Position numbers and translations under genes: made by a program | Shown: positions 1,948-25,307 of the stretch, in pieces | How the letters are laid out: each line of letters starts with the position of its first letter | Position numbering within the stretch: position 1 is the stretch's first letter | Source: Streptomyces sp. Ag109_O5-10 | GTDB taxonomy: Bacteria; Actinomycetota; Actinomycetes; Streptomycetales; Streptomycetaceae | Reading direction: 5' to 3' | Length of the DNA: 64,000 nucleotides | Assembly: GCF_900105755.1 (NCBI RefSeq) | Contig: NZ_FNTQ01000001.1 | Location: 9,114,001-9,178,000 of the forward strand | Notes under the pieces: model-generated | Databases searched by the model: none | The model's input: the letters and a program-made list of their open reading frames with translations, nothing else | Told to the model about the DNA's origin: nothing

Positions 1948-3279
1948 TCAGCGGGGTATGAGCAGTGCGGCGTTGGCGTCGGCGGCGCAGGAGCGCAACG
2001 CCTGGGCGGGACTGCTCCGGCCCAGCAGCACCGCGACGACGGCCTGGCCGAGGGCCTGCGAGATCTGCGGGTAGGCGGCGTGCACGGGGCGCACGCGGGC
2101 CGAGTCCAGTGCTTTGGTGAACACGTCCAGGCCCTCGGTGGCGTGCTCCTGGTGCTGCCAGGCGGGCAGGTCGCGGGTGTGGCGGCTGAGCGGGAGGCTG
2201 CCCGCGTCGATGTCCCAGCGCACGTCCTGCGCGGGCTGCATCAGCCAGCTCACGAAGGTCTTGGCGGCCTTCGTGCGGGCGGCGCCGTTGTCGAACACCG
2301 TCCAGGTGTCGGGTCCGCTGATGGTCACCGGCCGGCCGGAGAAGGTGGGCAGCGGGACGACGTGATAGTCGACCTTCGCCTGCCGGATGTCCGGGAGCTG
2401 CCAGGGGCCGGTGACGGCCATGCCCATCCGGCCGGACAGGAAGACCTGGTACATCTGCTCGCTGCCCGGCTTCGGGTCGACGTAGACGCTCTTGTCCCGG
2501 GCGAGGGCGGCCACCACCTCCAGGGCGCGGATCCCGGCGTCGCCGCCGAACCCGATGTGCTTGCCGTCGTCGGCGACGACGTCCCCGCCGAGATCCCAGA
2601 TCATGGGCCACATGCGCCAGACGGTGTCCTCGTCGCCGACGCCCGGCCAGCCGGTGCCGAAACGGCCGCTGCCGACGTTCGTGAGCGCCTTGGCGGTGGC
2701 GACGAAGTCGTCCCAGCGCCAGCCTGCTTGGGGCAGCGGCAGTCCGGCCTCCCGGAAGAGCTTCCGGTTGCAGACCACCGCGAGCGAGTCCAGCAGTGCG
2801 GGCGCGGCGCGTACCTGGCCATTGACGGTCACGGCCTGGCGGGCCGGCGCCCAGTAGTTCGTCCAGGGCGTGCCGGCATGTCCGACCATGTCGGTGAGGT
2901 CGGCGACCTGAGGGCTGTGGGCGACGCTCGCCAGGTCGGAGCCGAAGATGTAGGCGATGTCCGGGAAGGAGCCGGCGGCGAGGGCGGCGGTCACCTTCTG
3001 GAGCATCGCGTCGGCGAGCACCCCGCCGCCCAGCTCCACCCGGATGCGGGGGTGGCTCCGCATGAACGAGGCGGCCAGGGAGTCCATGGCCTTCTTGCCG
3101 GTGTCGGTCTGCCCGTGCCACATCTCGATCGTCACGGTGCCGTCGGCGCTCACGCCGTCGGCGCCGCCCGCCGCGCAGCCGGAGGCCCACAGGCCCGCGG
3201 CCGCCGTGGTGGCCAGAGCCGCGCCGGTGCGCAGCACTGTGCGGCGTTCGGGCTGTGCGCTGCGGGTGAGCGCGAACAT
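1948..3279 (-). CDS. Extracellular sugar-binding lipoprotein of the ABC importer
   Basis: A 443-residue type-1 extracellular solute-binding protein, the specificity component of the importer. The start at 3279 follows GGGAGG with good spacing; the reading frame is open further upstream but lacks a better start. The N-terminus combines a twin-arginine-like stretch (ERRTVLR) with a lipobox (ASGC), suggesting export as a lipoprotein. The mature part has the expected Trp/Tyr-rich sugar-binding character, for example VEMWHGQTD-like and GPWQLPDI segments. Its long leader contains a conserved RNA-like element at 3495-3597, which also precedes both GH114 genes. This suggests that the transporter imports the products of those enzymes. 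Confidence 0.92.
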   Translation of the reverse strand: MFALTRSAQPERRTVLRTGAALATTAAAGLWASGCAAGGADGVSADGTVTIEMWHGQTDTGKKAMDSLAASFMRSHPRIRVELGGGVLADAMLQKVTAALAAGSFPDIAYIFGSDLASVAHSPQVADLTDMVGHAGTPWTNYWAPARQAVTVNGQVRAAPALLDSLAVVCNRKLFREAGLPLPQAGWRWDDFVATAKALTNVGSGRFGTGWPGVGDEDTVWRMWPMIWDLGGDVVADDGKHIGFGGDAGIRALEVVAALARDKSVYVDPKPGSEQMYQVFLSGRMGMAVTGPWQLPDIRQAKVDYHVVPLPTFSGRPVTISGPDTWTVFDNGAARTKAAKTFVSWLMQPAQDVRWDIDAGSLPLSRHTRDLPAWQHQEHATEGLDVFTKALDSARVRPVHAAYPQISQALGQAVVAVLLGRSSPAQALRSCAADANAALLIPR

Positions 3280-3347
3280 GGGTACCTCCCGTGCGGAGCT
3301 GTGGGACAAGCGCAGTGCGTAAGGGATCGTGCGCCGTGCGGCGGTGC

Positions 3348-3485
3348 TCAGGGCCGGGCGTGGAGCGGGACGGGCGGCCGGGTGCGGGCGCTGGGCGACC
3401 GGAGCGGGCGGCCGGCACGTGAAGTGCCGCCTGCCGTGGCCGTCGAGATGCGCCGTCCGCGGGGAGCCGCATGGATACGGATCAT
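3348..3485 (-). CDS. Possible 45-residue upstream ORF in the binding-protein leader
   Basis: A short frame, ATG at 3485 to TGA at 3348, encodes a basic 45-residue peptide starting MIRIHAAPRGRR. It lies between the RNA-like element (3495-3597) and the binding-protein start at 3279. It is listed because its ATG is 23 nt past the closing stem of that element, close to the 21-23 nt seen between the same stem and the GH114 starts. The ribosome site is weak (TTGGAC). It resembles no family I know and could be chance in GC-rich DNA. Confidence 0.25.
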   Translation of the reverse strand: MIRIHAAPRGRRISTATAGGTSRAGRPLRSPSARTRPPVPLHARP

Positions 3486-3494
3486 GTCCAAGCC

Positions 3495-3597
3495 CCAGAG
3501 CATGGTGGGTACGTCCCCGCCTCGGACACCGACGTGGTCCTGGCGACTCAGTCCGGACTCCTGGCGCGTGGTCAGCTACCGGCTGGGCGTACCTCTG
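3495..3597 (-). ncRNA. Candidate structured leader RNA, copy A
   Basis: On the minus strand this 103-nt stretch carries the blocks CCCAGCCGGT, AGTCGCCAGGAC and GTCCGAGGCGGGG, shared in order with copies at 4638-4740 and 23349-23440. Its ends pair as GGTACG (3593-3588) with CGTACC (3513-3508), with CAGA/TCTG able to extend the stem. A GGAC/GTCC hairpin lies inside. The copy begins about 28 nt after the predicted transcription start of the binding-protein gene. The family is unknown to me; a cis-regulatory RNA is the inferred role. Confidence 0.65.
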
Positions 3598-3631
3598 CCG
3601 CCGAGTGCTTCGACTGCGGCGTTGACCAGGA

Positions 3632-3660
3632 GTTAAACGATGGTGCCCGGCAGCTGTCAA
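3632..3660 (-). promoter_or_regulatory. Predicted sigma-70-type promoter of the ABC importer operon
   Basis: The minus strand reads TTGACA (3660-3655), a 17-nt spacer, then TTTAAC (3637-3632). Transcription would start near 3625, placing leader copy A about 28 nt into the transcript. The same layout occurs at the GH114-1 promoter. Confidence 0.55.
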
Positions 3661-3726
3661 GAGGGAGGTGTTGATTGGACATGCGTGAAACACCGGGGAA
3701 ACCTGCATGATTGAGCATCAGGCGAT

Positions 3727-3765
3727 GCCGGCCTGTGGCGGCCCGGTGAGCCGTCACAGGCCGGC
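3727..3765 (-). terminator. Strong hairpin downstream of GH114-1
   Basis: A 15-bp stem (3727-3741 with 3751-3765, one G-T type mismatch) around a 9-nt loop sits 48 nt past the GH114-1 stop. There is no long U-run, which is common for streptomycete terminators. It separates GH114-1 from the importer promoter. Confidence 0.6.
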
Positions 3766-3812
3766 ACGCTTTCCAGGGCGCGCCTGGGGTCGTGATCAGT
3801 GCGGGATGCGCC

Positions 3813-4628
3813 CTAACAGGTCTTGCGGACGTATCCGCTGCTGCCGGCCGGCGAGACGTTCACGTCGCGCTGGACGATGCTCAGCGTGCCGCCCCATCCC
3901 CTGCACGCCTTCGTCTTGCCGGAGTTGGTGTACTCGATCACGATCACGTTGTTGCCGAAGGCGCTGGTGTAGTCGCCGCACTCGTCGTACTGGCCGCACT
4001 CCTCGGCCACGGCGAAGTCGAGGCCGTTGGCGGTGCGGTTGCCGGCCAGCTCGGGCGTGTTCTTCTGGGCGATGGCCAGGCCGTCCGCGTGGGCGCGCGC
4101 GGAGAGCAGCTTGATGAACGCCTGCGCGTTGTTCGCCGTCAGACGGTTTCCGGAGCGGCTGTAGCTGTCGTAGTTGTCGGGCTCGACGGCTTGGAAGCCC
4201 TTGTCCCGGCAGCCGTCGATCTGGGATCCGATCTGGCCGGCGATCCGCTGGCGCTTGGCGTCCGTGCTGACGTCGAGCAGGGCCTCGCCCCAGTCCTCGT
4301 CGTAGACGACCTTGCCCGCGGAGTCGCGCAGGAGCAGGTCCGGCGCCCACTCGCCCTTCGCGCCGGGCTGCGCCTGGAAGGCGTTGACGTAGCAGATGTT
4401 GTACAGACCGGCGGCCGGGGAGGCGGTGTGGTCACGGGTGACGACCTTGACGCCGGCGGGCGGTGTGTAGGCCCCTCCGATCTGGTAGTCGAAGCCCGTG
4501 TGCGTGGGCGGCAGGGACACGGTCGCCGCCTGCGTCGCGGGCGCCCCGACGAACAGGGCGCCGGTCAGCGCGGCCGCGCCGATGGCGGTGCCGGTGAGTG
4601 TGCGAGCGGTGGTGTTCGGGTGGCTCAT
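3813..4628 (-). CDS. Secreted GH114 endo-alpha-1,4-polygalactosaminidase-like enzyme (GH114-1)
   Basis: A 271-residue secreted protein of the GH114 family. A signal peptide covers about residues 1-34, ending AQA. The mature enzyme shows the family signatures TGFDYQIGGAY, GLYNICYVNAFQAQP, DEDWGEALLDV, VEPDNYDSY and FAVAEECGQYDECG; conserved acidic residues in the later motifs are the probable catalytic ones. Characterised family members cleave alpha-1,4-linked galactosamine polymers, including fungal galactosaminogalactan. The start at 4628 follows GGAG. A second enzyme at 23462 is clearly homologous over the whole mature length. The gene lies between the sugar importer and the AgaS operon and carries leader copy B immediately upstream, linking polymer cleavage to amino-sugar uptake. 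Confidence 0.88.
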   Translation of the reverse strand: MSHPNTTARTLTGTAIGAAALTGALFVGAPATQAATVSLPPTHTGFDYQIGGAYTPPAGVKVVTRDHTASPAAGLYNICYVNAFQAQPGAKGEWAPDLLLRDSAGKVVYDEDWGEALLDVSTDAKRQRIAGQIGSQIDGCRDKGFQAVEPDNYDSYSRSGNRLTANNAQAFIKLLSARAHADGLAIAQKNTPELAGNRTANGLDFAVAEECGQYDECGDYTSAFGNNVIVIEYTNSGKTKACRGWGGTLSIVQRDVNVSPAGSSGYVRKTC

Positions 4629-4637
4629 GCGTGAGCT

Positions 4638-4740
4638 CCAGAGGAAGCGGGCACGTCCCCGCCTCGGACGGGTGGGGTGTCCTGGCGACTTGGGCCGGGC
4701 TTGCGGCGCGGGGCCTGCATACCGGCTGGGCGTGCCTCTG
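4638..4740 (-). ncRNA. Candidate structured leader RNA, copy B
   Basis: Same length (103 nt) and block order as copy A. The closing stem here is GGCACG (4736-4731) with CGTGCC (4655-4650): relative to copy A one U-A pair has become C-G, a compensated change. An outer CAGAGG/CCTCTG pairing would reach into the CTCTGGAG that serves as the GH114-1 ribosome site. This makes control of translation plausible. An inner TGC-GGC/GCC-GCA stem and the GGAC/GTCC hairpin are also possible. Confidence 0.7.
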
Positions 4741-4771
4741 AACGCGGAGCGTGGCTCCGGTGTAGTCCGAG

Positions 4772-4800
4772 AGTAAAGCGATCGCTTTCGAGGATGTCAA
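4772..4800 (-). promoter_or_regulatory. GH114-1 promoter with overlapping 14-bp palindrome
   Basis: The minus strand reads TTGACA (4800-4795), 17 nt, TTTACT (4777-4772). The perfect palindrome AAAGCGATCGCTTT (4775-4788) fills the spacer and enters the -10 box. Its form resembles LacI-family operators, so a repressor there would block RNA polymerase. No LacI-type gene is in the window. Transcription would start near 4765, about 25 nt before leader copy B. Confidence 0.65.
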
Positions 4801-4915
4801 CGGCTGTGAAATCCCTTGTGTGGGGCTTGAGTTGGATGCTCGCGTGGTGGGGCGTGACAGTTGGCGGCGCTGCCCCAGTGTCGAAGGCAATGCGCGAAAC
4901 TGCTTGATGTAAGCG

Positions 4916-4944
4916 TTGATTGAGCAGCATCGAGCATCTAAGGT
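4916..4944 (+). promoter_or_regulatory. Predicted promoter of the Gfo/Idh gene
   Basis: TTGATT (4916-4921) and TAAGGT (4939-4944) are separated by 17 nt and lead into the oxidoreductase gene at 5153, leaving a leader of about 200 nt in which I see no gene. The spacer contains GAGCAGCATCGAGCATC, with a partial direct repeat of GAGCA. Confidence 0.4.
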
Positions 4945-5152
4945 CGTCGGCGTGACGGTCGGACCGGGCCGCGCCGCCGGCCCGGGGCGATGCGTGACGC
5001 GTCTCTGCCGCGCTCCCGCGCCGGGCGTGCCCGCGACGGCGGTTGGGACACCGCGAGTCCGTCCACCACCGCGCACCGCGGCCGGCCCTCCGACAGGCCC
5101 GAGGCGTCCAGGCGTCCGTCACGTCTCCCTGCTCGCGACGAAGGGATGCTCC

Positions 5153-6412
5153 ATGACCAACCAGCCGCCCGCGCCGGAACTGCGTGTCGGTGTCGTAGGC
5201 GCGGGCCAGCGAGCCGGGCTGGCCGTCCTGGCCGAGCGGCCCGGCTCGGCCCGCGTGGTCTCCTGCGCGGATCCGTCCGCGCGCGGCCGCACCGACGCCC
5301 GGACGCTCTTCGGGCCGGACGTCCAGATCCACGACCGTTACGAGGACATGCTCACGGACGACCTGGACGCCGTCTTCGTCCTCACCCCGGACGACCTCCA
5401 CACCGCTCCGGCCCTGTACTTCCTCGAGGCCGGTGTCGCCGTGTTCGTCGAGAAGCCGCTGGCCGTCGGCCTCGACGACTGCGACCGGGTCCTGGCCGCC
5501 GCGGCCCGCACCGGCACCCGGCTGTACGTCGGGCACAACCTCCGCCACCTGCCGGTCCTGCGCACCATGCGCGGGCTCGTCGACGACGGGGCGATCGGAA
5601 CCGTACGGGCCGTGTGGTGCCGGCATTTCGTCGGCCACGGCGGCGACTACTACTTCAAGGACTGGCATGCCGAACGGGCCCGGACCACGGGCCTGTTGCT
5701 GCAGAAGGGCGCGCACGACCTGGACGTGATCCATTGGCTCGCCGGCGGCTACGCCCGCACGGTGACCGCGCTGGGCGATCTGTCCGTCTACGGAGCCAGC
5801 CCGCACCGCCGTACCCGGCCCCAGGACTCGGAGCGAGTGCAGGACTGGTTCGACGAGGGCGTCTGGCCGCCGTCGGCGCTGCGCGATCTCAACCCCGTCA
5901 TCGACGTGGAGGACATCAGCATGGTGCTGACCCGCCTCGACAACGGGGTGCTCACCAGCTACCAGCAATGCCACTTCACCCCCGACTACTGGCGCAACTA
6001 CACCGTCATCGGCGACGAGGGCCGTATCGAGAACCTCGGGGACGGCGTCCAGGGCGACGCCCCGTTGATCAAGGTGTGGAACCGGCGCCGTTCCGGCTAC
6101 CGTGCCGAGGCCGATCTGACGCTGCCGCCCACCGAGCCGGCCGGCGGCGCGCACGGGGGCGCCGACCAGTCCCTCGTCGACGAGTTCCTGCGGTTCGTCG
6201 CGCACGGCGGTGCGACCGAGACATCGCCCGTCGCCGCACGGGAGGCCGTCGCGACCGGTATCGCGGCCACCACGTCGCTGCGCTCGGGGGGCACGCCGGT
6301 CCAGGTCCCCGCCCTCGCCCCGCACCTCGTCGACTACTTCGCGCGTCACCAGCCTGGTTCCCGCGGCCCGGCCTCGACGCGATGGGAACGCCTGATCGGT
6401 GACGGTCAGTGA
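5153..6412 (+). CDS. Gfo/Idh/MocA-family NAD(P)-dependent oxidoreductase
   Basis: A 419-residue cytoplasmic sugar oxidoreductase. The ATG at 5153 follows AGGGA and begins directly before a Rossmann fold: LRVGVVGAGQRAGLAVLA near residues 10-27 binds the dinucleotide. The family lysine motif VEKPLAV is near residue 100, and the C-terminal alpha/beta domain carries the substrate site (GGDYYFKDWHAER, GAHDLDVIHWLAGG). Such enzymes oxidise or reduce sugar hydroxyls, sometimes as part of unusual glycoside cleavage. The gene is divergent from GH114-1 and its stop overlaps the stop of the aldolase gene by 7 nt. Its step in the amino-sugar pathway is unknown. Confidence 0.9.
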   Translation: MTNQPPAPELRVGVVGAGQRAGLAVLAERPGSARVVSCADPSARGRTDARTLFGPDVQIHDRYEDMLTDDLDAVFVLTPDDLHTAPALYFLEAGVAVFVEKPLAVGLDDCDRVLAAAARTGTRLYVGHNLRHLPVLRTMRGLVDDGAIGTVRAVWCRHFVGHGGDYYFKDWHAERARTTGLLLQKGAHDLDVIHWLAGGYARTVTALGDLSVYGASPHRRTRPQDSERVQDWFDEGVWPPSALRDLNPVIDVEDISMVLTRLDNGVLTSYQQCHFTPDYWRNYTVIGDEGRIENLGDGVQGDAPLIKVWNRRRSGYRAEADLTLPPTEPAGGAHGGADQSLVDEFLRFVAHGGATETSPVAAREAVATGIAATTSLRSGGTPVQVPALAPHLVDYFARHQPGSRGPASTRWERLIGDGQ

Positions 6413-7254
6413 GCCAGCACGCTGAGCATGCTGTGTACCGTGCCGGCGACGGCGTCGCGCGCGGGGCCCAGGTACTTGCGCGGGTCGGTCAGCGCAGGCA
6501 GCGAGTCCAGCGTGTCGCGCACGACCCGGGTCAGGGATATGTTGAGCGCCGTCCCGATGTTGATCTTCACGATGCCGGCTCGGACGGCGGAACGGAGTTC
6601 GCCGTCGGGAACTCCTGAGGAGCCGTGCAGCACCAGGGGCACCGGAACCGCTTCCCGGAGTCGTTCGATGAGTGCGTGGTCCAGCGTCGCCGACCGTTCG
6701 GTCATGGCGTGACTGCTGCCCACCGCGACCGCGAGGGCGTCCACGCCGGTACGCGCCACATAGTCGGCGGCCTCCGCCGGGTCGGTGCGCACGCCGGCGG
6801 TGTGCGCGCTCGCGGGGGAGTCCGGCTTGCCTCCCACATAGCCCAGTTCGGCTTCCAGCCAGAGCCCCGCGCCGTGAGCCCATCGAGCCGCCGCGGCGGT
6901 GGCGGAGACGTTCTCCGCGTAGGGCAGGGCCCCGGCGTCGAACATCACGGAGGAGAAGCCGCAGTCGGCCGCCTGGTGCAGCAGCTCCACGTCGGTCACG
7001 TGGTCGAGGTGCAGCGCGACCTCGACCGCGCTGGACCGGGCCATCGAGGCCGCCGCCAGCGCGAGCGGAAGCAGCTGGCCCCTGTGGTACCGCACGGCGT
7101 TCTCGCTGATCTGCAGGATCACCGGCCGTTCGGCCGCCTCGGCGCCCGTGATGATGCCTTCGGCGTGCTCCAGGGTGATGACGTTGAAGGCGGTGACGCT
7201 ACGGCGCGCGGTCGCGGCGTGGGCGACCAGTTCGCCGGTGGGGACCAGAGGCAT
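6406..7254 (-). CDS. Class II ketose-bisphosphate aldolase, GatY/KbaY-like
   Basis: A 282-residue zinc-dependent aldolase of the fructose/tagatose-bisphosphate family. The ATG at 7254 follows GAGGAGC; an upstream in-frame extension lacks a better start. Visible active-site features are HLDH at residues 82-85 (catalytic Asp84, zinc ligands), the ELGYVGG segment, HGSSG (zinc His) and KINIGTALN near the C-terminus, the DHAP phosphate site. In the AgaS operon the likely reaction is cleavage of tagatose-1,6-bisphosphate to DHAP and glyceraldehyde-3-phosphate, helped by the GatZ-like subunit encoded at 10443-11735. Fructose-bisphosphate cannot be excluded from sequence alone. Confidence 0.9.
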   Translation of the reverse strand: MPLVPTGELVAHAATARRSVTAFNVITLEHAEGIITGAEAAERPVILQISENAVRYHRGQLLPLALAAASMARSSAVEVALHLDHVTDVELLHQAADCGFSSVMFDAGALPYAENVSATAAAARWAHGAGLWLEAELGYVGGKPDSPASAHTAGVRTDPAEAADYVARTGVDALAVAVGSSHAMTERSATLDHALIERLREAVPVPLVLHGSSGVPDGELRSAVRAGIVKINIGTALNISLTRVVRDTLDSLPALTDPRKYLGPARDAVAGTVHSMLSVLAH

Positions 7255-7318
7255 GTGTGTGCTCCTCGCGCGGGGGGCTGGCTGAACCTGCGATGTCGGT
7301 GTGCGGCGGCTCACGTTC

Positions 7319-8242
7319 CTACGGGCCCGAGAGCGATGCCGATGGTTGCCGGGTCCCGGGCGTCTCTTCGCGCTTCTCGTCGGCGTACACCATCAGAGTG
7401 GATCCGCCGAGGGCGAGGACGATGCCGATGGTCCCCCAGATCGTCGGCAGCGTCTGGTAGACGATGAGGGACAGCACGATGGTGAGCACGGGTGCCAGGG
7501 CGTTGGTGACCGGTGCGACGACGCTGGCCTTGCCGCGGCTGAGCGCCATGACGAGGAACAACGCGCCCACGGCGTTGAGGACCTGGGTGCCGGCGGTGAG
7601 TGCCGGGGCCTGCCACGGTGCGTCGGGCAGCCCGCCCATCATGGCGACGGCCACGGGGACGAGCAGCAGACCGCTGATCGTCATCCACCCGAACGTGGTG
7701 GCGTCGTTGACGTCGGCGAGGGCGGCCTTGCGCATGAAGAACGCCTGCGCGCCCCAGGCCACGCAGATGAGGACGGAGAGCAGCAGCCAGGACCCGGTGC
7801 CGGCCGAACCGTGGTCGCCCGCGGGGATGCTGATGAGCACGATGGCGACCAGCGCGGCGACCACGCCGATGACGGCGAGCCGTCCGATCCGCTCCCTGAG
7901 CAGGGCCACCGCCATCAGCACGGTGATCACCGGGGAGAGCGAGACCACCGGGAAGATCAGGTAGGCGGGGCCGTTGGACAGCGCCTGGAACAGCAGGAGC
8001 TGACCGCCCGCGCCGGTGAGGCCCGCCGCGAGCCCGTAGAACGCGGCGACCGGCCGCCGGTCGAAGCGCTGGCGGCGCAGCGCGACCGCCGCCGGCAGCA
8101 GCATGGTGAAGGCCCAGATGACGTAGATCATCTCGTTGGGGTAGCCGTACCGTTCGGTGGGCTGGCTGGAGAACGCTCCCCAGACGCCCCAGAACAGCAC
8201 CAGCAGGCCCGCGTACAGGATCCAGTTTCTTTGGTCACGCAT
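7319..8242 (-). CDS. EamA/DMT-family membrane transporter
   Basis: A 307-residue protein with about ten hydrophobic helices arranged as two EamA repeats (LVLFWGVWGAF at the N-terminus, LSVLICVAWGAQAFF near residue 160). It begins 8 nt inside the end of the kinase gene, so it is translationally coupled to it. Drug/metabolite transporters move small metabolites, often outward. Being embedded in an amino-sugar operon suggests uptake or export of a pathway metabolite, perhaps monosaccharide, but the substrate is not readable. A paired EamA in such an operon is less usual than a PTS or ABC system. Confidence 0.87.
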   Translation of the reverse strand: MRDQRNWILYAGLLVLFWGVWGAFSSQPTERYGYPNEMIYVIWAFTMLLPAAVALRRQRFDRRPVAAFYGLAAGLTGAGGQLLLFQALSNGPAYLIFPVVSLSPVITVLMAVALLRERIGRLAVIGVVAALVAIVLISIPAGDHGSAGTGSWLLLSVLICVAWGAQAFFMRKAALADVNDATTFGWMTISGLLLVPVAVAMMGGLPDAPWQAPALTAGTQVLNAVGALFLVMALSRGKASVVAPVTNALAPVLTIVLSLIVYQTLPTIWGTIGIVLALGGSTLMVYADEKREETPGTRQPSASLSGP

Positions 8243-9239
8243 GGTGGTTCTCCGTGGGGGTGATCTCCGAAGAGGAGCGCAGGGCGGCGAGTGCCGCGGT
8301 GTCGAGAGGGGTTCCGGCGAGCTTCGCCGCGTAGAGGGCCGCGCCGACCACCGGCTCGAACTGCGGCCGGCGCAGCTCGTAGCGGGCCGCGCCGCCGCGG
8401 AGTTCGGTGGTGAACGCGTCGAGTACGGCCGCCGAGCGGAAGACGCCGCCCGAGTAGGACACCGGGACGGGTTCGGCGTCGGCGAAGCCCAGCCGGCGTC
8501 GCGCGCTGTCCACCAGCAGGGCCAGTTCCCGTCCGGCCTCGGTGAGGACGGCGGCGGCCTGTGTGTCGCCCAGCCCGGCCGCCTCGACCACCAGCGGACT
8601 CAGCGAGGCGATCTCGCTGCGGTGACCCTGCCACCGGTTGAGGACGACGTCGATCACTTCGAGGTCGGTGGTCAGATCCAGATGGCGGCGCAGGAGGTCC
8701 GCGAGCGGGCCCTCGGGCAGCCGGCCGTCACTCATCCGGGAGAACACGTTCAGCGCGCGGGCGGCGATCCAGTACGCCGATCCCTCGTCGCTGAACAGTT
8801 CGCTCCAGCCTCCGGTGCGCACACCGCGGCCCTGCCGCTCGCCGTAGGTCATCGATCCGGTACCGCTGATGACGTTGATGCCGTCCACCGCGCCGAGCGA
8901 TCCGGCCCACCCGCAGATCATGTCGTTGTCGCACGCGTACCGCCCGTGTCCCAGCACCTCGCCGGGGACGGCGTCCAGCGCGGCGACGTCGCCGGGGACC
9001 TCCCCGTACCCGGGCAGGCCCAGGAACGCGTAGTCGATGTCCGCGAGCGTGATGCCCGCGTCCTCCGTCACGGCCCGGATGCCCTCGCGCAGAACCTGCG
9101 CGACGTGCTCCACGCCCCCGGTGCCGTTGTCCGCGAAGTAGTAGGCACCCTCCGCGACGGCCCGGGCCCTGATCGCGCCCGCACGGTCGATGAGGCAGAA
9201 GGCCGTCTTGGTGCCTCCGCCGTCCACACCCAGAAACAT
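8235..9239 (-). CDS. BadF/BadG-type amino-sugar kinase (N-acetylglucosamine-kinase-like)
   Basis: A 334-residue ATP-dependent sugar kinase of the ASKHA fold. The N-terminal phosphate loop is FLGVDGGGTKTAFCLID; further signatures are DYAFLGLPGYGE, CDNDMICGWAGSLG, NVISGTGSM and GGWSELFSDEGSAYWIA. Relatives phosphorylate GlcNAc or glucosamine at C6; in this setting galactosamine or GalNAc phosphorylation to feed AgaS is the inferred role. It lies 34 nt downstream of agaS and overlaps the EamA gene by 8 nt. Because the importer is ABC-type rather than PTS, a cytoplasmic kinase like this is required for the pathway to work. Confidence 0.88.
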   Translation of the reverse strand: MFLGVDGGGTKTAFCLIDRAGAIRARAVAEGAYYFADNGTGGVEHVAQVLREGIRAVTEDAGITLADIDYAFLGLPGYGEVPGDVAALDAVPGEVLGHGRYACDNDMICGWAGSLGAVDGINVISGTGSMTYGERQGRGVRTGGWSELFSDEGSAYWIAARALNVFSRMSDGRLPEGPLADLLRRHLDLTTDLEVIDVVLNRWQGHRSEIASLSPLVVEAAGLGDTQAAAVLTEAGRELALLVDSARRRLGFADAEPVPVSYSGGVFRSAAVLDAFTTELRGGAARYELRRPQFEPVVGAALYAAKLAGTPLDTAALAALRSSSEITPTENHHA

Positions 9240-9273
9240 CGTTGTTCCTCCGCTCGGCTCTGTCTGAACGCTG

Positions 9274-10446
9274 TTAGACGACGTCGTCGCGTCGCTGGGG
9301 GAGCGGATGCACGGTCACGCCCTGCACCACGCGGTTCACCTCTCCGGAGGGGAACGGGTTGTCGGGCCGGAGGCCCTGGTGCAGGGACGCGCGCAGCGCG
9401 ATCAGCTGGGCACAGATCACCGCGGGAAGGGCGAGGACGGTGTCGTCGACGCCGGCGAGCCCCGGGAGCAGCCAGGTGTCGTCGCCGGGCAGTCCGTCCG
9501 GTGACGTGGAGACGGCGACGACGCTGCCCTGCGGCAGCCCCGCGCGCAGTTCGGTGAGGATGTCGAGGTCGTAGCGGCGCGTGTAGGGGTCGTTCGACAC
9601 GTAGACGACGACAACCGTGCGGTCGTTCAGGACGGACTTGGGGCCGTGGCGGAAGCCGAGTGAGGACTCCGAGGACGCCACGAGCGCACCGCCGGTCAGC
9701 TCCAGCAGCTTCAGGGCGGACTCCTGGGCCAGCCCCTTGAGCGCGCTGCTGCTGCCGAGGTACACCAGCCGTTCGGGTGCGCGGGCCAGCAACTCCTCGA
9801 TCCGCGCGGAGAGTCCGCCCGCGGTGATGTGCTCGGCCGCGGCGGCGGGGGCCTCGACGGCGTCGGTGGTGAGCGCGCCCAGGGCGAGCAGGGAGGCCAG
9901 CAGCATGCTGGTGAAGCTCGACGTCATGGCGAAGCCCTGGTCGTTCGCCGCGGCGGGCATCTGCAGGACGTGGGAGGAGGCGCTGCCGCCGTGGAGGCGT
10001 GCCAGCTCTCCGGCGCTGTTGCAGGTGATGACGAGGTGGTGGACGCGTGTCAGGACCTGGTCCGCGAGCCGGGTCGCCGCGACACTCTCGGGGCTGTCGC
10101 CGGACCGCGCGAACGAGACGAGCAGCGTGGGGACGTCGTCGGGGAAGGACGCGTGGGGGTCGGCGACGATGTCCGTGGTGGACACGGCGTCGGTGCGCCG
10201 GCCGGTGGCACGTGCGACCGCGGCCCGGACGACTTCGCCGGCGAAGGCCGAGGTACCGGCTCCCGTGAGGACGATCCGCAGGTCCTCGTCGGCGAGCAGG
10301 GGTGCCAGGAAGGCGTCCAGGGACGCGCGCTCACCGGCGACGATCGCCCCGACCTCACGCCACACGTCGGGCTGCTGGATGATCTCGGCGGTCGTGTGGT
10401 CGGCCCCGCGGTCCTGAGGTACCAGGTCCTGGGTGGTGGTCTTCAC
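9274..10446 (-). CDS. agaS: AgaS-type SIS-domain amino-sugar phosphate isomerase/deaminase
   Basis: A 390-residue protein with two sugar-isomerase (SIS) domains, matching the AgaS layout: HTTAEIIQQPDVWREV near residues 17-32, RIVLTGAGTSAFAGEV, SFARSGDSPESVAA and, in the second half, LGFRHGPKSVL. AgaS converts galactosamine-6-phosphate to tagatose-6-phosphate with loss of ammonia. The GTG start at 10446 overlaps the upstream gene's stop (GTGA), so both are coupled. The enzyme is the best single indicator that this operon handles a galactosamine-type rather than a glucosamine-type sugar, although substrate preference within the family varies. Confidence 0.9.
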   Translation of the reverse strand: MKTTTQDLVPQDRGADHTTAEIIQQPDVWREVGAIVAGERASLDAFLAPLLADEDLRIVLTGAGTSAFAGEVVRAAVARATGRRTDAVSTTDIVADPHASFPDDVPTLLVSFARSGDSPESVAATRLADQVLTRVHHLVITCNSAGELARLHGGSASSHVLQMPAAANDQGFAMTSSFTSMLLASLLALGALTTDAVEAPAAAAEHITAGGLSARIEELLARAPERLVYLGSSSALKGLAQESALKLLELTGGALVASSESSLGFRHGPKSVLNDRTVVVVYVSNDPYTRRYDLDILTELRAGLPQGSVVAVSTSPDGLPGDDTWLLPGLAGVDDTVLALPAVICAQLIALRASLHQGLRPDNPFPSGEVNRVVQGVTVHPLPQRRDDVV

Positions 10447-11735
10447 GCGTACTCCTTGTCATGGGTGCGGCATGCACGGTCGTAGTCGCGCAGGACGTCA
10501 CGGACGTGATCGACCACGAGGTCCCGCGGTGTCGCGGACAGGGCGCCTGCCCGGACGCGCTGGTACTGGTTGGGCAGGTGGGCACTCAGCAGCGGAAGCG
10601 GAATGGCGAGGCCCGAGAGGTTGGCGAACAGCCGGTCCTGCGCGGCGGCGATCTCGGGGTCGGGCCAGTAGTAGCGCATGCGGTCGCTGTAGCTGTAGCG
10701 CCTGGCCAGCCGCTGGTCGGCGGCGCTGCCCCCGTAGTAGCCCTCCCACCAGGAGGGGTCGTCGCGCATACGCCGGTCGACGACCTCGGCCAGCCGGGAC
10801 CGGGATCCGGCCGGGACGAGCTCGTCCTCGATGTCGGCGAGCGCGAACAGGGCCTCGCGCAGCGCGAACGTCAGTCCGGGGCCTACCTTGAGCACCGCCC
10901 AGTGGTCCGCCACCAGGCCGGCCAGTGCGTCCACCGTCTGGTAGTCGGTCGAGTGGGCTTCGAAGACCATGCCGGGTTCGTCGGTCAGGACCGTGCGCAG
11001 CTCGGCCGTCCGCTCACGCCGGTAGTCGAACACCTGGAGGTGATCGAACTCCACGCCGGGCTGCACGACCAGGGCCATGACGCGAGGCCATGCCCCGGCC
11101 ACGCCGTGCCTCTCGAACGCGCGCCGGTTGTGTGCCAGCGTCAGCCGTGCCGCCTGCGGACTGGTGGCGGACATGCCTTCCAGCGTCTCGTGGGCCCCTC
11201 CGGGCACCGGTACCTCGGTTCCGATGACATATCGGAGGGTCCCGGCGGAGTCACCCGCGGTGGTCTCGGCCACGCGCACCAGGCGTGCGGTGCGATCGGC
11301 GACCAGGTCGTCGGTCAGCGGGGCCACGTCGTCGGCGCAGGAGAAGCTGCAGTCCAGGTGGATCTTCGTGAAGCCCGCCCGGACGTATGCCGCGACGAGC
11401 CTGTCCGCTTCGCCCATCGCTTCTTGCGAGGACAGCGAACGCCACCGGTTGGGTCCCAGGTGGTCTCCCCCCAGAACGACCCGGTCCAGCGGCAGCCCGT
11501 GTTCGGCGGCTATGCCGTGCACGAGTTCGCGGAAGTCTTCGGGCCGCATGCCGGTGTAGCCGCCGTACTGGTCCACCTGGTTGGAGGTCGCCTCGGCGAG
11601 GACGGTGCCTCCCGACGCGAGGGCCTGGCGGACCGCTGCCTCGATGACCAGCGGATGGGCCGAGCAGACGGAGGTGATGCCGTGCGGTTCGCCTGCCTTC
11701 TGGCGGCGGACCACTTCGTCCAAGGGATTCCACAT
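10443..11735 (-). CDS. GatZ/KbaZ-like tagatose-bisphosphate aldolase subunit
   Basis: A 430-residue protein of the GatZ/KbaZ family, the non-catalytic partner that stabilises GatY/KbaY aldolases, though some members have been proposed to act as tagatose-6-phosphate kinases. Start chosen at the ATG at 11735, 5 nt after GGAG. Visible motifs include GITSVCSAHPLVIEAA near the N-terminus, EATSNQVDQYGGYTGM, LGGDHLGPNRW, KIHLDCSFSC, VIGTEVPVPGGA and VFEAHSTDYQ. It is the first gene of the leftward operon and faces the GntR regulator across a 149-nt gap filled with an array of operator-like repeats. Confidence 0.92.
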   Translation of the reverse strand: MWNPLDEVVRRQKAGEPHGITSVCSAHPLVIEAAVRQALASGGTVLAEATSNQVDQYGGYTGMRPEDFRELVHGIAAEHGLPLDRVVLGGDHLGPNRWRSLSSQEAMGEADRLVAAYVRAGFTKIHLDCSFSCADDVAPLTDDLVADRTARLVRVAETTAGDSAGTLRYVIGTEVPVPGGAHETLEGMSATSPQAARLTLAHNRRAFERHGVAGAWPRVMALVVQPGVEFDHLQVFDYRRERTAELRTVLTDEPGMVFEAHSTDYQTVDALAGLVADHWAVLKVGPGLTFALREALFALADIEDELVPAGSRSRLAEVVDRRMRDDPSWWEGYYGGSAADQRLARRYSYSDRMRYYWPDPEIAAAQDRLFANLSGLAIPLPLLSAHLPNQYQRVRAGALSATPRDLVVDHVRDVLRDYDRACRTHDKEYA

Positions 11736-11808
11736 GATCGCTCCAGGGTTCACCGAAGGGCGTCCGCCGTATCTGTCGGCGCGCCTTCGGAAACGTGACT
11801 GGAACGGT

Positions 11809-11886
11809 ACTGGTCTCCCTCATGGCCGTCAATGGTCTGTTATTGGTATGGAACTGGTCTGCTCGAAACTGGTATACATCTGGTAT
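11809..11886. promoter_or_regulatory. Array of six TGGT(C/A)T half-sites, GntR operator region
   Basis: Six direct copies of an NNTGGT(C/A)T octamer start at 11809, 11831, 11842, 11853, 11868 and 11879. The steps are 22, 11, 11, 15 and 11 bp, mostly one or two helical turns, so most copies face the same side. ACTGGTCT is exactly the half-site of the inverted DasR-type operators bound by GntR/HutC regulators, but here it is repeated directly. The array covers the divergent promoter space and the last copy overlaps the GntR start codon. Confidence 0.7.
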
Positions 11887-12679
11887 GTCTTCTTCGGACC
11901 GTGGTCTCCCTCAAGGGCTGTTGAGCGGAGACGCCCTGCCGCTGTACACCCAGGTCGCCGGACGCCTCCTGGACGACATCGCCGAGAGAGGTGCCCGCCC
12001 GGGAGACCGGCTGCCCTCGGAGCGGGCACTGGCCACCCGGTACGGCGTCTCGCGCGTCACCCTTCGCTCGGCCCTGAACGAACTCGCGGAGCGCCGGGTC
12101 ATCGAGTCCGCGCCGGCCCGCGGCTGGTTCCTCGCCGAGGGCTACGAGCGCGTCGCCCCCGCATCGGCTCCGCCGTCACCGGGTCGGGCGACAGCCCAGT
12201 CGGTCCAGGGCTTCGCCGACTACGCCGAACAGCAGGGACTGCGGCTCCGCGACTCGGTCCTGGAGACCAGGGTCCGTCCCGCCACCGTTCAGGAGTCCGA
12301 ACAGCTGAGGGTCGGCCCGGGAGCCGCGCTCTTCGAGATGCGCCGACTGCGCTACCTGGACGACATCGTCGTGGTGCTGGAGCACAACCGGCTGCCGCTC
12401 GCACTGTGCCCGGAGCTCGCGGAGACGGACTTCACCACGCACACGCTCTTCGCGACGCTCCGCCGCGCCGACCCGCCGCAACTGCCCAAGGTCGCCGACT
12501 ACTCCGTGGAAGCACGCCACCCGACGGCGGAGGAACGGCGACTGCTCGAAATCACCGACGCGACTCCGGTGCTCGTCGCCACGCAGCTCGCCTTCAACCA
12601 GAACGGACAGCCCCTCGAACTCACCGCGGCCGCCTACCGCGGCGACCGGTACCACTTCCGGGCCTCCATCACGGGGTGA
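11885..12679 (+). CDS. GntR/HutC-family regulator of the amino-sugar operon
   Basis: A 264-residue repressor-type protein. The winged helix is at about residues 18-85 (PLYTQVAGRLLDDIAERG, RLPSERALATRYGVSRVTLR), and the rest is a UTRA effector domain (QGLRLRDSVLETRV through ALCPELAETDF and LELTAAAYRGDRYHF). UTRA domains bind phosphorylated amino sugars in DasR/NagR relatives, fitting a pathway intermediate as inducer. No ribosome site precedes the ATG at 11885, and the upstream in-frame starts are no better, so a leaderless mRNA is likely. Its start codon lies inside the repeat array, implying autoregulation. Confidence 0.88.
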   Translation: MSSSDRGLPQGLLSGDALPLYTQVAGRLLDDIAERGARPGDRLPSERALATRYGVSRVTLRSALNELAERRVIESAPARGWFLAEGYERVAPASAPPSPGRATAQSVQGFADYAEQQGLRLRDSVLETRVRPATVQESEQLRVGPGAALFEMRRLRYLDDIVVVLEHNRLPLALCPELAETDFTTHTLFATLRRADPPQLPKVADYSVEARHPTAEERRLLEITDATPVLVATQLAFNQNGQPLELTAAAYRGDRYHFRASITG

Positions 12680-17628: not shown

Positions 17629-18831
17629 GTGCCGTTCGGCCAGGTGATCAGCAGCAGTGGGACGCTCACGCTCATGACCCTTCTCGCGCTGCGTCCGCCG
17701 CGACCGCGGCGCTCCACTCCCTTCACTCTGAGCTTCTTTCTCACCTTCCTGATCAACGAGCAGCCGTTCCTCGGCCTGTATGTGCTGGCCGCCGGTGCGG
17801 TACCGCCTCTGCTGGCCGGAGAGACGGGAACGCTGTCGTGGTGGCTGGGCACGGGCACGGCCGCGGGCACCGCGGGCGGACTGCTGGTGCTGGCGGTGCG
17901 GGCCCGCACCGCCCGACCCCGGCTGACCGCTGCGCTGCGACAGGCACTCGGGCCGTCGGCGGTGGTGCAGCGACGGCGGCGTGGCCCGTGGCCGATCGTG
18001 CGGCTGATGGTCTTGCCCCTGATCTCCTACCGGTTCGACGTGCGGCGGGTGGCCAACCTGCGCTACGGCGACGCAGGCCGAGGCCACCTGCTGGACGTGT
18101 ACGTCCCCCGGGCAGGGACAGCCAACGCGCCGGTCCTCGTCTACCTGCACGGCGGGGGCTTCCGCATCGGCAGCAAGATGATCGGCGCGCGTCCCCTGCT
18201 CTACCGGCTGGCCGGCCGGGGCTGGGTGTGCGTGAGTGCCAACTACCGGCTGGGCGGCCGCCTGGACTATGCCGACCGGCTCGCGGATGTGCGGCAGGTC
18301 GTCCGGTGGGTGTGCGACAATGGTGCCGCCTACGGAGCCGATCCGTCGGCGGTGTTCCTCGCCGGCGGCTCCGCCGGGGCCCATCTGGCGGCCACGACCG
18401 CGCTCACCGCAGGCGGGGCACCGGGTCAGCCGGACGGTGAGGAGACCGGCCCACCGGTGGCGGGGGTGATCGGCTTCTACGGCTACTACGGGCAGGCCGA
18501 CGCCGGCGCCGACTCCACCCCGCTGGCACACCTGCACCCGGACGCCCCGCCGTTCCTCGTCGTCCACGGCGCGCTGGACACGCTGGTCCTGGTCGAGGAT
18601 GCCCGACATTTCGCGTCCGAACTCGGGCGCGTCTCCACCCAGCCGGTGGTCTACGCCGAACTCCCCGGCACCCAGCACAACTTCGACTTCTTCCCCTCGC
18701 TCCGTTTCCACGCCGTCATCGACGCGGTCGAGGACTTCACCGCCTGGGTCCGATCCGGCGACGCGGCCGGACCGACGCATCGGGATGCGGCGCCCTCCCG
18801 CCGGGAAGACGATCCCGGCGGGCACCCCTAG
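17629..18831 (+). CDS. Membrane-anchored alpha/beta hydrolase (esterase-like)
   Basis: A protein of about 400 residues. The GTG at 17629 has a strong ribosome site (AGGGGGAG, 5 nt away); an ATG at 17674 would shorten it by 15 residues. Two hydrophobic segments near residues 30-90 are followed by a hormone-sensitive-lipase-type hydrolase domain: oxyanion motif LHGGGFRIGS, nucleophile in AGGSAGAHLA, acid in HGALDTLVLVED and His in GTQHNFDFF. It should hydrolyse short or hydrophobic esters on the inner face of the membrane. The gene stands alone; the 229-nt gap before it holds no other gene. Confidence 0.85.
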   Translation: MPFGQVISSSGTLTLMTLLALRPPRPRRSTPFTLSFFLTFLINEQPFLGLYVLAAGAVPPLLAGETGTLSWWLGTGTAAGTAGGLLVLAVRARTARPRLTAALRQALGPSAVVQRRRRGPWPIVRLMVLPLISYRFDVRRVANLRYGDAGRGHLLDVYVPRAGTANAPVLVYLHGGGFRIGSKMIGARPLLYRLAGRGWVCVSANYRLGGRLDYADRLADVRQVVRWVCDNGAAYGADPSAVFLAGGSAGAHLAATTALTAGGAPGQPDGEETGPPVAGVIGFYGYYGQADAGADSTPLAHLHPDAPPFLVVHGALDTLVLVEDARHFASELGRVSTQPVVYAELPGTQHNFDFFPSLRFHAVIDAVEDFTAWVRSGDAAGPTHRDAAPSRREDDPGGHP

Positions 18832-23215: not shown

Positions 23216-23348
23216 GCGACCACGTCTGACCGCACCCCACGCCGCGGCCCAACGCCCTCCGGCCCGGCCCGGACGCGGCACAAGCCGGTTGCGACGGCTT
23301 GATATCGTCACGGTGTCGGACCGCCCAGCACCGTCGCGGTCCGCGGAA

Positions 23349-23440
23349 CCATGGCATTCCCAGCCGGTGACACGGGCCTTCGACCCGTCAGCCCGGCCCC
23401 AGTCGCCAGGACCATGCGCGTCCGAGGCGGGGCATGCTCT
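23349..23440 (+). ncRNA. Candidate structured leader RNA, copy C
   Basis: Contains the same three blocks as copies A and B: CCCAGCCGGT, AGTCGCCAGGAC and GTCCGAGGCGGGG (23420-23432). The closing stem has a third sequence, GGCAT (23353-23357) with ATGCT (23434-23438). An inner ACGGG/CCCGT hairpin replaces the inner stems of the other copies, and GGAC/GTCC is kept. It ends 23 nt before the GH114-2 start and is in sense orientation although this gene runs opposite to the other two. Confidence 0.68.
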
Positions 23441-23461
23441 CCCGTCCAGAAGCAGGCCGTC

Positions 23462-24346
23462 ATGCGCAAGTCCCCGGCAGAATCCAGCCGCGCCGCGGTC
23501 ACGCGCGCCGTCGCTGTCGCCGTCGTCCTGGCCACAGCCTCCCTCACCGCAGGCTGCTCCAGCATCAGCACCGAAACGGGCACCACCACTCCAACGGGCA
23601 GCGCCTCGAAAGCCCCGGCGGCGAAAGTCTCCGGACCGCCCGTCCACGCCGGCGTCGACTACCAGCTCGGCGGCGCCTACACCCCGCCGAAGGGCGTCTC
23701 CGTGGTCTCCCGCGACCACACGGCGTCGCCCGCCGCGGGCCTGTACAACATCTGCTACGTCAACGCGTTCCAGGCCCAGCCCGACGCGGAGCAGGAGTGG
23801 GACGCCGACCTCCTGCTGCGCGACGCCTCCGGGAGGATCGTCATGGACGAGGACTGGGGCGAGGCGATGCTCGACATCAGAACCCCGGCCAAGCGCGCGC
23901 GGATCGCGCAGAAGGTGGACGACTGGATCGACGAGTGCGCCGACAAGGGGTTCGACGCCGTCGAGCCGGACAACTACGACAGCTACACCCGCGCCCCGCA
24001 CGGACTGCTGACCGCGGCCGACGCCGAGGCGTTCCAGACCCTCCTCGCCCGCCACGCGCACTCCCGGCACCTCGCCGTCGCCCAGAAGAACACCCTCGAA
24101 CTCGCCAAGGACCGCAAGCGGGTCGGCCTCGACTTCGCGGTGGTGGAGGAATGCGGGCAGTACGACGAATGCGGGTCCTACGTCGACGCGTTCGGCGACC
24201 ACGTCATCGTCGTCGAATACACCGAGAAGGGCCTGAGGAAGGCCTGCGCGGGCTGGGGCGACCGGATCAGCGTCGTCCGGCGCGACCTCGACGTCACACC
24301 GGCCGGTCACCACGGGTACCTGCGCGAGACCTGCGACCGTTACTGA
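23462..24346 (+). CDS. GH114 polygalactosaminidase-like lipoprotein (GH114-2)
   Basis: A 294-residue homologue of GH114-1 with the same signatures: GVDYQLGGAYTPPKGV, GLYNICYVNAFQAQP, DEDWGEAMLDI, VEPDNYDSYTR and FAVVEECGQYDECGSY. The difference is at the N-terminus: a lipobox (LTAGCSS) predicts a lipoprotein, followed by a Thr/Ser-rich linker of about 30 residues, so this copy should stay on the cell surface while GH114-1 is released. Start at 23462 with a weak GCAGG site; an in-frame ATG at 23414 would run into the RNA element. It is tail to tail with a polysaccharide deacetylase gene, which suggests a deacetylate-then-cleave pair. Confidence 0.87.
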   Translation: MRKSPAESSRAAVTRAVAVAVVLATASLTAGCSSISTETGTTTPTGSASKAPAAKVSGPPVHAGVDYQLGGAYTPPKGVSVVSRDHTASPAAGLYNICYVNAFQAQPDAEQEWDADLLLRDASGRIVMDEDWGEAMLDIRTPAKRARIAQKVDDWIDECADKGFDAVEPDNYDSYTRAPHGLLTAADAEAFQTLLARHAHSRHLAVAQKNTLELAKDRKRVGLDFAVVEECGQYDECGSYVDAFGDHVIVVEYTEKGLRKACAGWGDRISVVRRDLDVTPAGHHGYLRETCDRY

Positions 24347-24437: not shown

Positions 24438-25307
24438 TCACCTGTTCGGCGGCTGGATGTAGTCCTCCAGGCGGGCCACGGCGAAGCCCTGCTCATGGAT
24501 GCGCCGGAGCAGGTTGGCGAACATGTGCGTCATCGTGGTGCCCTTGAGCTCGGACGGCCCGCGGAAGTGGGCCAGGATGATGTCTCCGGGGTGCAGCTTC
24601 CTGTCTGCCGACTGGTACTGCATATTGCGGATCTGCATGGACTCCCGCCACCACACGATCGCGCGGGGTCCGCACTCCCCGACCGCGATCCTGGTGTTGG
24701 CGTTGTACGCGCCGTAGGGCGGCCGGAAGAGCAGCGGCGCGGTGCCGTACTCCTTGGTGAGGATCTTCTGGTCGCCGCACACCTCCTCCTTCTGGCGGGC
24801 CAGGGGGAGGGCGCTCATCACGGGGTGGTGCAGGGTGTGGTTCTGGATGTGGTTGCCCAGTGCCTGCAGCGGCCGGAAGTACGCGTAGTCCGACTTGACG
24901 GCGTCGTCCATCAGGAACATCGTGATCGGGACCCTCAGGTCCCGCAGCATCCGGATGAAGGCGGGGTCCTTCTCCTGTCCATCGTCCACGGTGATGAAGA
25001 CGACCTTCTGTGTGGTCGGTATGCGGGTGAAGACCGGAACGGTTCCGGTGGCCGAGAGCCGCACCGGCTTGTCGGCCGGGGGCCGCGGGGCAGCGGGCAG
25101 CGGAGTCAGGCCCCACTTGTGCCAGTTCGCCGCCGAGTCGGACACGGCGGGCGCGGTACTGACGGTGCCGTCGGATACGGCGGGCCGGGAGGCGCGGGCG
25201 GTACCACCGGTACCGCCACCGGCGCCGCAACCGCCCATCGCCAGGCTCACTGCGACCGCCCCTGTCACCGACCGGTACAGCCTGCCCCGGTTCCTGCGCT
25301 TGTCCAC
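24438..25307 (-). CDS. Polysaccharide deacetylase (CE4-type) lipoprotein
   Basis: A 289-residue secreted NodB-fold deacetylase. GTG start at 25307 with AAGGA 8 nt upstream; signal peptide with lipobox (AMGGC). Catalytic motifs are visible: motif 1 VVFITVDDGQEKDP (TFDDG variant with two Asp), motif 2 NHTLHHP (metal His), motif 3 FRPPYGAYN, and a late IILAHFRGP with the catalytic His. Such enzymes remove N-acetyl groups from chitin, peptidoglycan, PNAG or poly-GalNAc. Convergence with GH114-2, which needs free amino groups on galactosamine, suggests the GalNAc polymer as substrate, but peptidoglycan remains possible. Confidence 0.85.
   Translation of the reverse strand: MDKRRNRGRLYRSVTGAVAVSLAMGGCGAGGGTGGTARASRPAVSDGTVSTAPAVSDSAANWHKWGLTPLPAAPRPPADKPVRLSATGTVPVFTRIPTTQKVVFITVDDGQEKDPAFIRMLRDLRVPITMFLMDDAVKSDYAYFRPLQALGNHIQNHTLHHPVMSALPLARQKEEVCGDQKILTKEYGTAPLLFRPPYGAYNANTRIAVGECGPRAIVWWRESMQIRNMQYQSADRKLHPGDIILAHFRGPSELKGTTMTHMFANLLRRIHEQGFAVARLEDYIQPPNR

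Follow-up and report, generated by a model that had tools for sequence, protein, structure and literature searches.

A conserved three-way-junction RNA leader of GH114 and sugar-importer genes in actinobacteria, probably a new cis-regulatory family

The glmS ribozyme, a self-cleaving sensor of an amino-sugar phosphate, controls glucosamine 6-phosphate synthesis in Firmicutes, and the c-di-AMP riboswitch ydaO/yuaA stands before cell-wall hydrolase genes in Streptomyces. To our knowledge, riboswitches that sense sugars are few. Candidate Streptomyces leader RNAs described in passages of PMC11109978 include the dauA motif, a three-stem junction that includes the Shine–Dalgarno sequence, and the livJ motif, which occurs before genes for LIVBP-like ABC binding-protein domains. 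Galactosaminogalactan and similar cationic polymers from fungi and bacteria are degraded by endo-galactosaminidases, a group that includes GH114; according to passages of PMC12054363, the group is little characterised, its bacterial GH114 members are ‘elusive’ and a galactosaminidase activity of Streptomyces griseus is mentioned without a sequence.

Here we analyse a leader that precedes GH114 and ABC-importer genes in actinobacteria. Our best explanation, to which we give a probability of about one half, is an undescribed family of cis-acting 5′ leader RNA through which a metabolite of the galactosamine pathway switches GH114 and the importer together.

Three copies in one Streptomyces window

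The window, by which we mean the whole 64-kb stretch of Streptomyces sp. Ag109_O5-10 that was analysed, carries the leader at 3483-3621 (minus strand), 4626-4759 (minus) and 23317-23464 (plus), here called copies A, B and C. The composite pattern CCCAGCCGGT-gap-AGTCGCCAGGAC-gap-GTCCGAGGCGGGG matches the window three times and none of 100 dinucleotide shuffles, and the covariance model has no strong match in the 64 kb besides these three copies. The features are as follows.

96-1945, minus: genes for two ABC permeases, behind that of the solute-binding protein (BPD_transp_1)
1948-3279, minus: gene for the solute-binding protein (SBP) of an ABC importer, behind copy A (domain match, SBP_bac_1)
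3348-3485, minus: open reading frame (ORF) of 45 codons between copy A and the SBP gene, starting 13 nt past the model end of copy A
3508-3593, minus: copy A junction domain (covariance model, 96.8 bits), with helices P1 3593-3588/3513-3508, CCC/GGG from 3587-3585, P2 3582-3579/3556-3553 and P3 3544-3537/3527-3519
3599-3621, minus: copy A 5′ hairpin P0, CGCCG ... CGGCG (sequence and arm-swap test)
3632-3660, minus: copy A promoter, TTGACA at 3660-3655, 17 nt, TTTAAC at 3637-3632
3813-4628, minus: GH114-1, endo-galactosaminidase family gene behind copy B (PF03537, E 8.5e-54)
4650-4736, minus: copy B junction domain (covariance model, 95.5 bits), with helices P1 4736-4731/4655-4650, P2 4725-4722/4698-4695 and P3 4686-4679/4669-4661
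4745-4759, minus: copy B 5′ hairpin P0, CGGAGC CAC GCUCCG (sequence and arm-swap test)
4772-4800, minus: copy B promoter, TTGACA at 4800-4795, 17 nt, TTTACT at 4777-4772
6406-11753, minus: galactosamine-type catabolic genes without a leader match (class II aldolase, EamA transporter, BadF-type kinase, AgaS-family isomerase, GatZ/AgaZ)
11795-12679, plus: GntR/UTRA regulator gene, divergent from the catabolic cluster
23317-23343, plus: copy C 5′ hairpin P0, CGGACCGC ... GCGGUCCG (sequence)
23353-23439, plus: copy C junction domain (covariance model, 76.1 bits)
23462-24346, plus: GH114-2 gene behind copy C (PF03537, E 7.9e-56)
24438-25307, minus: polysaccharide deacetylase gene adjoining GH114-2 (PF01522)

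The original prediction, made from the letters of the window, had reported two minus-strand copies of equal length at 3495-3597 and 4638-4740, each behind a TTGACA-17-TTTA promoter. Both copies and both promoters are in place and the blocks quoted as shared are common to the two; the equality of length is only approximate, with 86 versus 87 nt from P1 to P1 and small indels. The outer stem is compensated as described, GGUACG/CGUACC in the copy at 3499 and GGCACG/CGUGCC in the copy at 4641 differing by one compensated pair. A third copy, which had been given without coordinates, was located at about 23343-23448 on the plus strand, ahead of the second GH114 gene; its outer stem is GGCAU/AUGCU and, unlike copies A and B, it has no TTGAC ahead of it. 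Hairpin P0 lies just 5′ of the element as reported and had been overlooked.

The GntR/UTRA regulator may control the catabolic genes at the DNA level, separately from the leader, and the deacetylase gene beside GH114-2 would fit a substrate polymer that is partly deacetylated. The importer start lies 206 nt past the start codon of copy A, so polarity through the short ORF might connect the two.

Distribution and gene context

An exact P3 pattern was found at 22 places in 17 of 199 genus genomes, compared with none for the reversed control, and these 22 places were used to build a covariance model, R1; part of P3 and of the junction was fixed by construction in this seed search. Of 392 genus genomes searched with R1 under strict filters, 71 had a match; the 107 matches divide into 104 strong copies, which score at least 52 bits, and 3 at 27-31 bits. 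Model matches of 23-31 bits (L085, L086, L106, L107, L108 and position 18177 of the window) have different neighbours and were taken as chance, outside the 104. Among 394 genomes of the class, eight had a match, six from the same genus and two, both weak, from outside it. With a second model, R2, matches were obtained for 32 of 200 family genomes, spread over 4 of 17 genera, and for 4 of 296 phylum genomes, every one from the same genus. A scan of named species genomes gave at least 119 stretches and contributed at least 80 loci, every one with a model match of at least 57 bits, and carriers among the matches listed for them include Kitasatospora, Actinacidiphila, Embleya, Amycolatopsis, Nonomuraea and Catenulispora, as well as MAGs; these genera belong to several orders. 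From all of these counts, the leader is frequent in the family and patchy elsewhere.

The leader keeps to a narrow set of genes. Within 1,500 nt downstream of the 104 strong copies, 53 have a GH114 gene, 32 a GH114 gene and then an SBP gene, 16 an SBP gene and 3 neither, so that GH114 (85) or the importer binding-protein gene (16) follows 101 of the 104. The three others are L039, at a contig end, L089 (1501-1604) and L105 (3277-3384), the last of which looks decayed in P1 and P3. In the named loci, with at least 83 matches, the corresponding numbers are 37, 31, 11 and 4; two of these four lie at the end of a sequence stretch and two precede a DeoR/AgaR-like gene. The DeoR-family regulator behind two Catenulisporales copies scores 181 and 183 bits on the NCBIfam AgaR model, short of its cut-off of 260 and hence unassigned, and adjoins an ABC sugar importer. 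A GH114-like ORF can be seen by eye in Catenulispora (L192, about 5400-6169, plus strand), within a few kb of the DeoR-family gene that bears the leader. In the family search, 31 of 33 pattern matches (some loci overlapping) were ahead of GH114, one was at a stretch end and one (L328) was ahead of a BadF-type kinase gene, itself just 3′ of a GH114 gene. Near that upstream GH114 gene lies a partial second match of 37 bits (G1108:C103:18274-18352).

Linkage was surveyed in 89 loci that span 7 kb or more, with limited flanks and with 11 window proteins as the only queries, a design that misses unrelated linked genes. GH114 was linked in 78 loci and SBP in 50; the two permeases followed with 39 and 37 loci, and Gfo/Idh with 9; rarer were the aldolase (6), the BadF kinase (2) and EamA, AgaS, GatZ and GntR (1 each). 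The association with one pathway is recurrent, through GH114, the importer SBP, the DeoR/AgaR-like regulator and the BadF-type kinase. Because AgaS and GatZ were each linked in only 1 of 89 loci, our guess at the ligand leans on GH114 and on the window's own catabolic cluster.

For many GH114 genes no leader was detected. The 199 genomes contain 122 GH114 genes, with a leader detected in 43 and none detected in 79, and in 8 of 30 GH114 loci examined the GAGGCGGGG core is absent upstream. One of these eight, L173, is a genuine divergent copy (57.7 bits). Other loci show degrees of loss: in L172, L180, L167 and L169 the GH114 gene and a promoter-like TTGAC box persist, with the leader gone; L164 (1300-1360) retains the first leader bases and the Shine–Dalgarno sequence but neither P2 nor P3; a degenerate remnant stands ahead of GH114 in L175; and in L174 nothing recognisable of the leader is left upstream of GH114. 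Such relatives are ready-made natural controls.

Of the 16 copies followed by an SBP gene only, five have the leader and start codon in frame into that gene; in the other 11, window copy A included, the leader is followed by a short ORF (27-95 codons). These arrangements suggest that the SBP-type copies arose by loss of GH114 from a leader-GH114-SBP operon in which the leader was retained; the SBP cases, looking derived in this way, are not fully independent recruitments. All 16, no longer preceding GH114, conserve the leader at 71-97 bits. The in-frame copies are L118 (3148+), L125 (3335-), L126 (3121-), L134 (2958-) and L094 (2858+); the first SBP residues of L118, L125, L126 and L134 are GH114-like, as if GH114 had been deleted.

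Fold, covariation and the approach to the start codon

The leader consists of the sequence-variable 5′ hairpin P0, directly before CAGA, and a three-way junction of P1, P2 and P3. P1 closes the domain with GGYRCG/CGYRCC plus CCC/GGG; P2 is CCGG/CCGG and bears a variable distal hairpin, P2b; and P3 is GCC-A-GGAC/GUCC-GA-GGC, with the variants GGAC/GUCC, GGUC/GACC and GGUG/CACC. The junction nucleotides are invariant across copies.

We compared the pairing of helix arms with their own and with swapped partners in 40 representatives under 80% identity, which remained from 43 after L083, L104 and L105 (wrong anchor, or divergent or decayed-looking copy) were dropped. Own partners were better in P0 (z -5.8), P1 (-5.5), P2b (-5.5) and P3 (-6.0), each with 0 of 2,000 swaps, whereas a control region had no own-partner advantage (z -0.3, 783 of 2,000). 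Pairs were also counted in an alignment, A6, of 77 sequences from 68 sources picked for diversity: 98.3% of cells are paired, sliding the partners destroys the pairing, and doubly changed cells (33 versus 9.7 in shuffles, 0 of 500) and doubly changed pairs (7 versus 3.9, 3 of 500) are in excess. As A6 was fitted to the structure, the helix-level swap test weighs more.

Under a home-made tree-based null for covariation, no pair is individually significant; the best is a P3 pair with a two-set E of 0.075, and one P3 pair and one P2b-region pair rank as the top two column pairs. In a separate run of this null, no pair was listed with an E of 0.05 or less. When arms were swapped with those of the five nearest relatives, own partners were better:worse in 25:15 (P0), 25:9 (P1), 22:16 (P2b) and 29:11 (P3) cases, compared with 19:21 for the control, a modest advantage. 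Compensatory change maintains the structure at the level of helices, by arm swaps and pair counts, with no single pair significant under the tree-based null.

In 96 of the 104 strong copies, TTGAC occurs 59-77 nt before P1, compared with a mean of 5.3 in mononucleotide shuffles, and from its position we predict an mRNA start roughly 30 nt 5′ of P1. In most copies the end of P1 is about 20-25 nt ahead of the start codon. Measured from the model end, the start codon follows after 10-14 nt in the 16 importer-type copies and, by eye, after a similar distance in most others. Judged from sequence, the leader therefore occupies a presumed 5′ untranslated region (UTR), in one orientation and at a near-fixed distance from the start codon.

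Three candidate switching devices were considered and none was adopted. An anti-Shine–Dalgarno hairpin between P1 and the Shine–Dalgarno sequence can be drawn by eye in some copies, but is not supported across 39 representatives (z +1.0, with 1,678 of 2,000 permutations as good). Pairing of the 5′ CAGAGG with a CCUCUG near the Shine–Dalgarno sequence was likewise seen by eye, in some copies only. Ensemble folding of 38 sequences gave no consistent direction of Shine–Dalgarno accessibility with P1, the site being more open in 8 of 38 with P1 forced and in 12 of 38 with the P1 strand blocked.

Candidate functions and known RNAs

The original prediction is supported in so far as it invoked a structured, cis-acting RNA that couples polymer cleavage to uptake: the leader sits before gene starts, covaries at helix level, matches no Rfam family and is followed by genes of one pathway. 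Matches scattered without regard to gene starts, a lack of covariation and membership of a named RNA family, the outcomes that the prediction had named as contrary to it, were all looked for, and none came true.

We propose that transcription from the promoter would yield an mRNA whose first ~140 nt fold into the variable hairpin P0 and the three-way junction, with the invariant junction nucleotides as the putative binding pocket. Uptake of the digestion products of a galactosamine polymer would lead to a small pathway metabolite, for which galactosamine, an oligomer or galactosamine 6-phosphate are candidates, and this metabolite would bind the leader. Binding may stabilise P1 and thereby alter initiation at a start codon that lies roughly 20-25 nt further 3′, a level of control that we infer along with its direction. 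The secreted GH114 enzyme and the importer would then be switched jointly, together with a kinase or an AgaR-like regulator in some lineages. A ligand-binding leader that controls adjacent initiation fits best because P1 ends so close to the start codon in most copies and because the start codon is kept even where the ORF is a relic. On our best reading, the leader forms a new family of cis-regulatory RNA and is probably a riboswitch whose ligand derives from galactosamine. More tentatively, with a chance that we put somewhat below even, it may represent a new riboswitch class of actinobacteria for galactosamine, galactosamine phosphate or an oligomer that switches endo-galactosaminidase, importer, kinase and AgaR-like regulator together.

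A protein could equally well recognise such a structure, which in the window copies measures 86-87 nt from one end of P1 to the other and has invariant bases at its junction, and the leader could be the site at which a regulatory protein from or near the pathway blocks or permits translation while the RNA itself binds no metabolite. Folding for Shine–Dalgarno accessibility found no consistent expression platform, which is compatible with such a site, and passages of PMC11109978 raise the possible binding of protein factors to the candidates of that study. Against it, no RNA-binding gene is known to be linked, the genes that recur among the 11 window proteins searched for in the 89 loci being GH114, SBP and the two permeases. 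The copies are also spread over genera of several orders, and we consider a protein site rather unlikely. The leader might instead be a constitutive 5′-UTR element that stabilises the mRNA or aids translation of secreted enzymes without sensing anything; its loss from some GH114 relatives that keep the promoter, and the 79 of 122 GH114 genes in which none was detected, would accord with this. A generic stabiliser would, however, be expected before unrelated highly expressed genes, yet GH114 or the importer follows 101 of the 104 strong copies, and the other identified neighbours are a sugar-kinase-type gene and a sugar-operon-type regulator; we think this explanation unlikely.

Long invariant blocks could also mark the target of a trans-acting small RNA, which is very unlikely given that these blocks are mostly in or beside helices with covarying arms; the variable hairpins P0 and P2b would moreover go unexplained. 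Sequence conservation by itself is compatible with a protein–DNA site, but hairpin loops that differ in length and sequence while pairing is kept, and a position 3′ of a conserved promoter-like box and mostly 10-14 nt (from the model end) before start codons, make a DNA operator or repetitive DNA element highly improbable. Equally improbable is that the leader has no function and was merely co-inherited with duplicated GH114 genes, its commonest neighbours, in view of the compensatory changes, the 71-97 bits kept in 16 copies that no longer precede GH114 and the copies ahead of regulator and kinase genes.

If the leader is indeed a riboswitch of the galactosamine pathway, soil bacteria could use RNA to detect fungal galactosaminogalactan or Pel-type polymers of bacteria. 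An unnamed, well-supported leader-RNA family is in any case added, with a clear pathway context that provides a short list of testable ligands.

Comparison with described RNAs supports novelty; the original prediction had proposed a scan against Rfam, with no known family as the supporting outcome. In a covariance-model scan of the whole window against Rfam 15 (4,227 families), no match reached the gathering cut-off, and the same held for 15 diverse loci that carry the leader. Relaxing the threshold to E 10 for 3300-5000 gave nine matches, none of which overlaps a leader on its strand. Among the literature matches listed, no title or abstract start was on the leader and, in 20 of them, no phrase for a galactosamine riboswitch occurred, the 224-motif survey being covered only via Rfam. 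Two Streptomyces transcript papers among those listed, PMC8079986 and PMC8780764, may contain transcript starts of carriers. Like the glmS ribozyme, the leader is a 5′-UTR RNA tied to hexosamine metabolism and, like ydaO/yuaA, it stands ahead of a secreted hydrolase; it differs from both in having no Rfam match, and from glmS also in that its genes serve polymer degradation and uptake in actinobacteria. The dauA, livJ, pntA and asfR motifs are likewise candidate Streptomyces leader RNAs, but passages of PMC11109978 place them before other genes, a distinction by description rather than by sequence; the terms GH114 and galactos are absent from the main text of that paper. The msiK motif (RF01747) is, like the leader, an actinobacterial 5′-UTR RNA motif of sugar ABC transport. 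Passages of PMC2864571, however, describe msiK as one long hairpin, interrupted by a bulge of 11 nt, ahead of the ATPase gene, whereas the leader, without a match in the cmscan of Rfam, is a three-way junction with a 5′ hairpin before GH114 and SBP genes.
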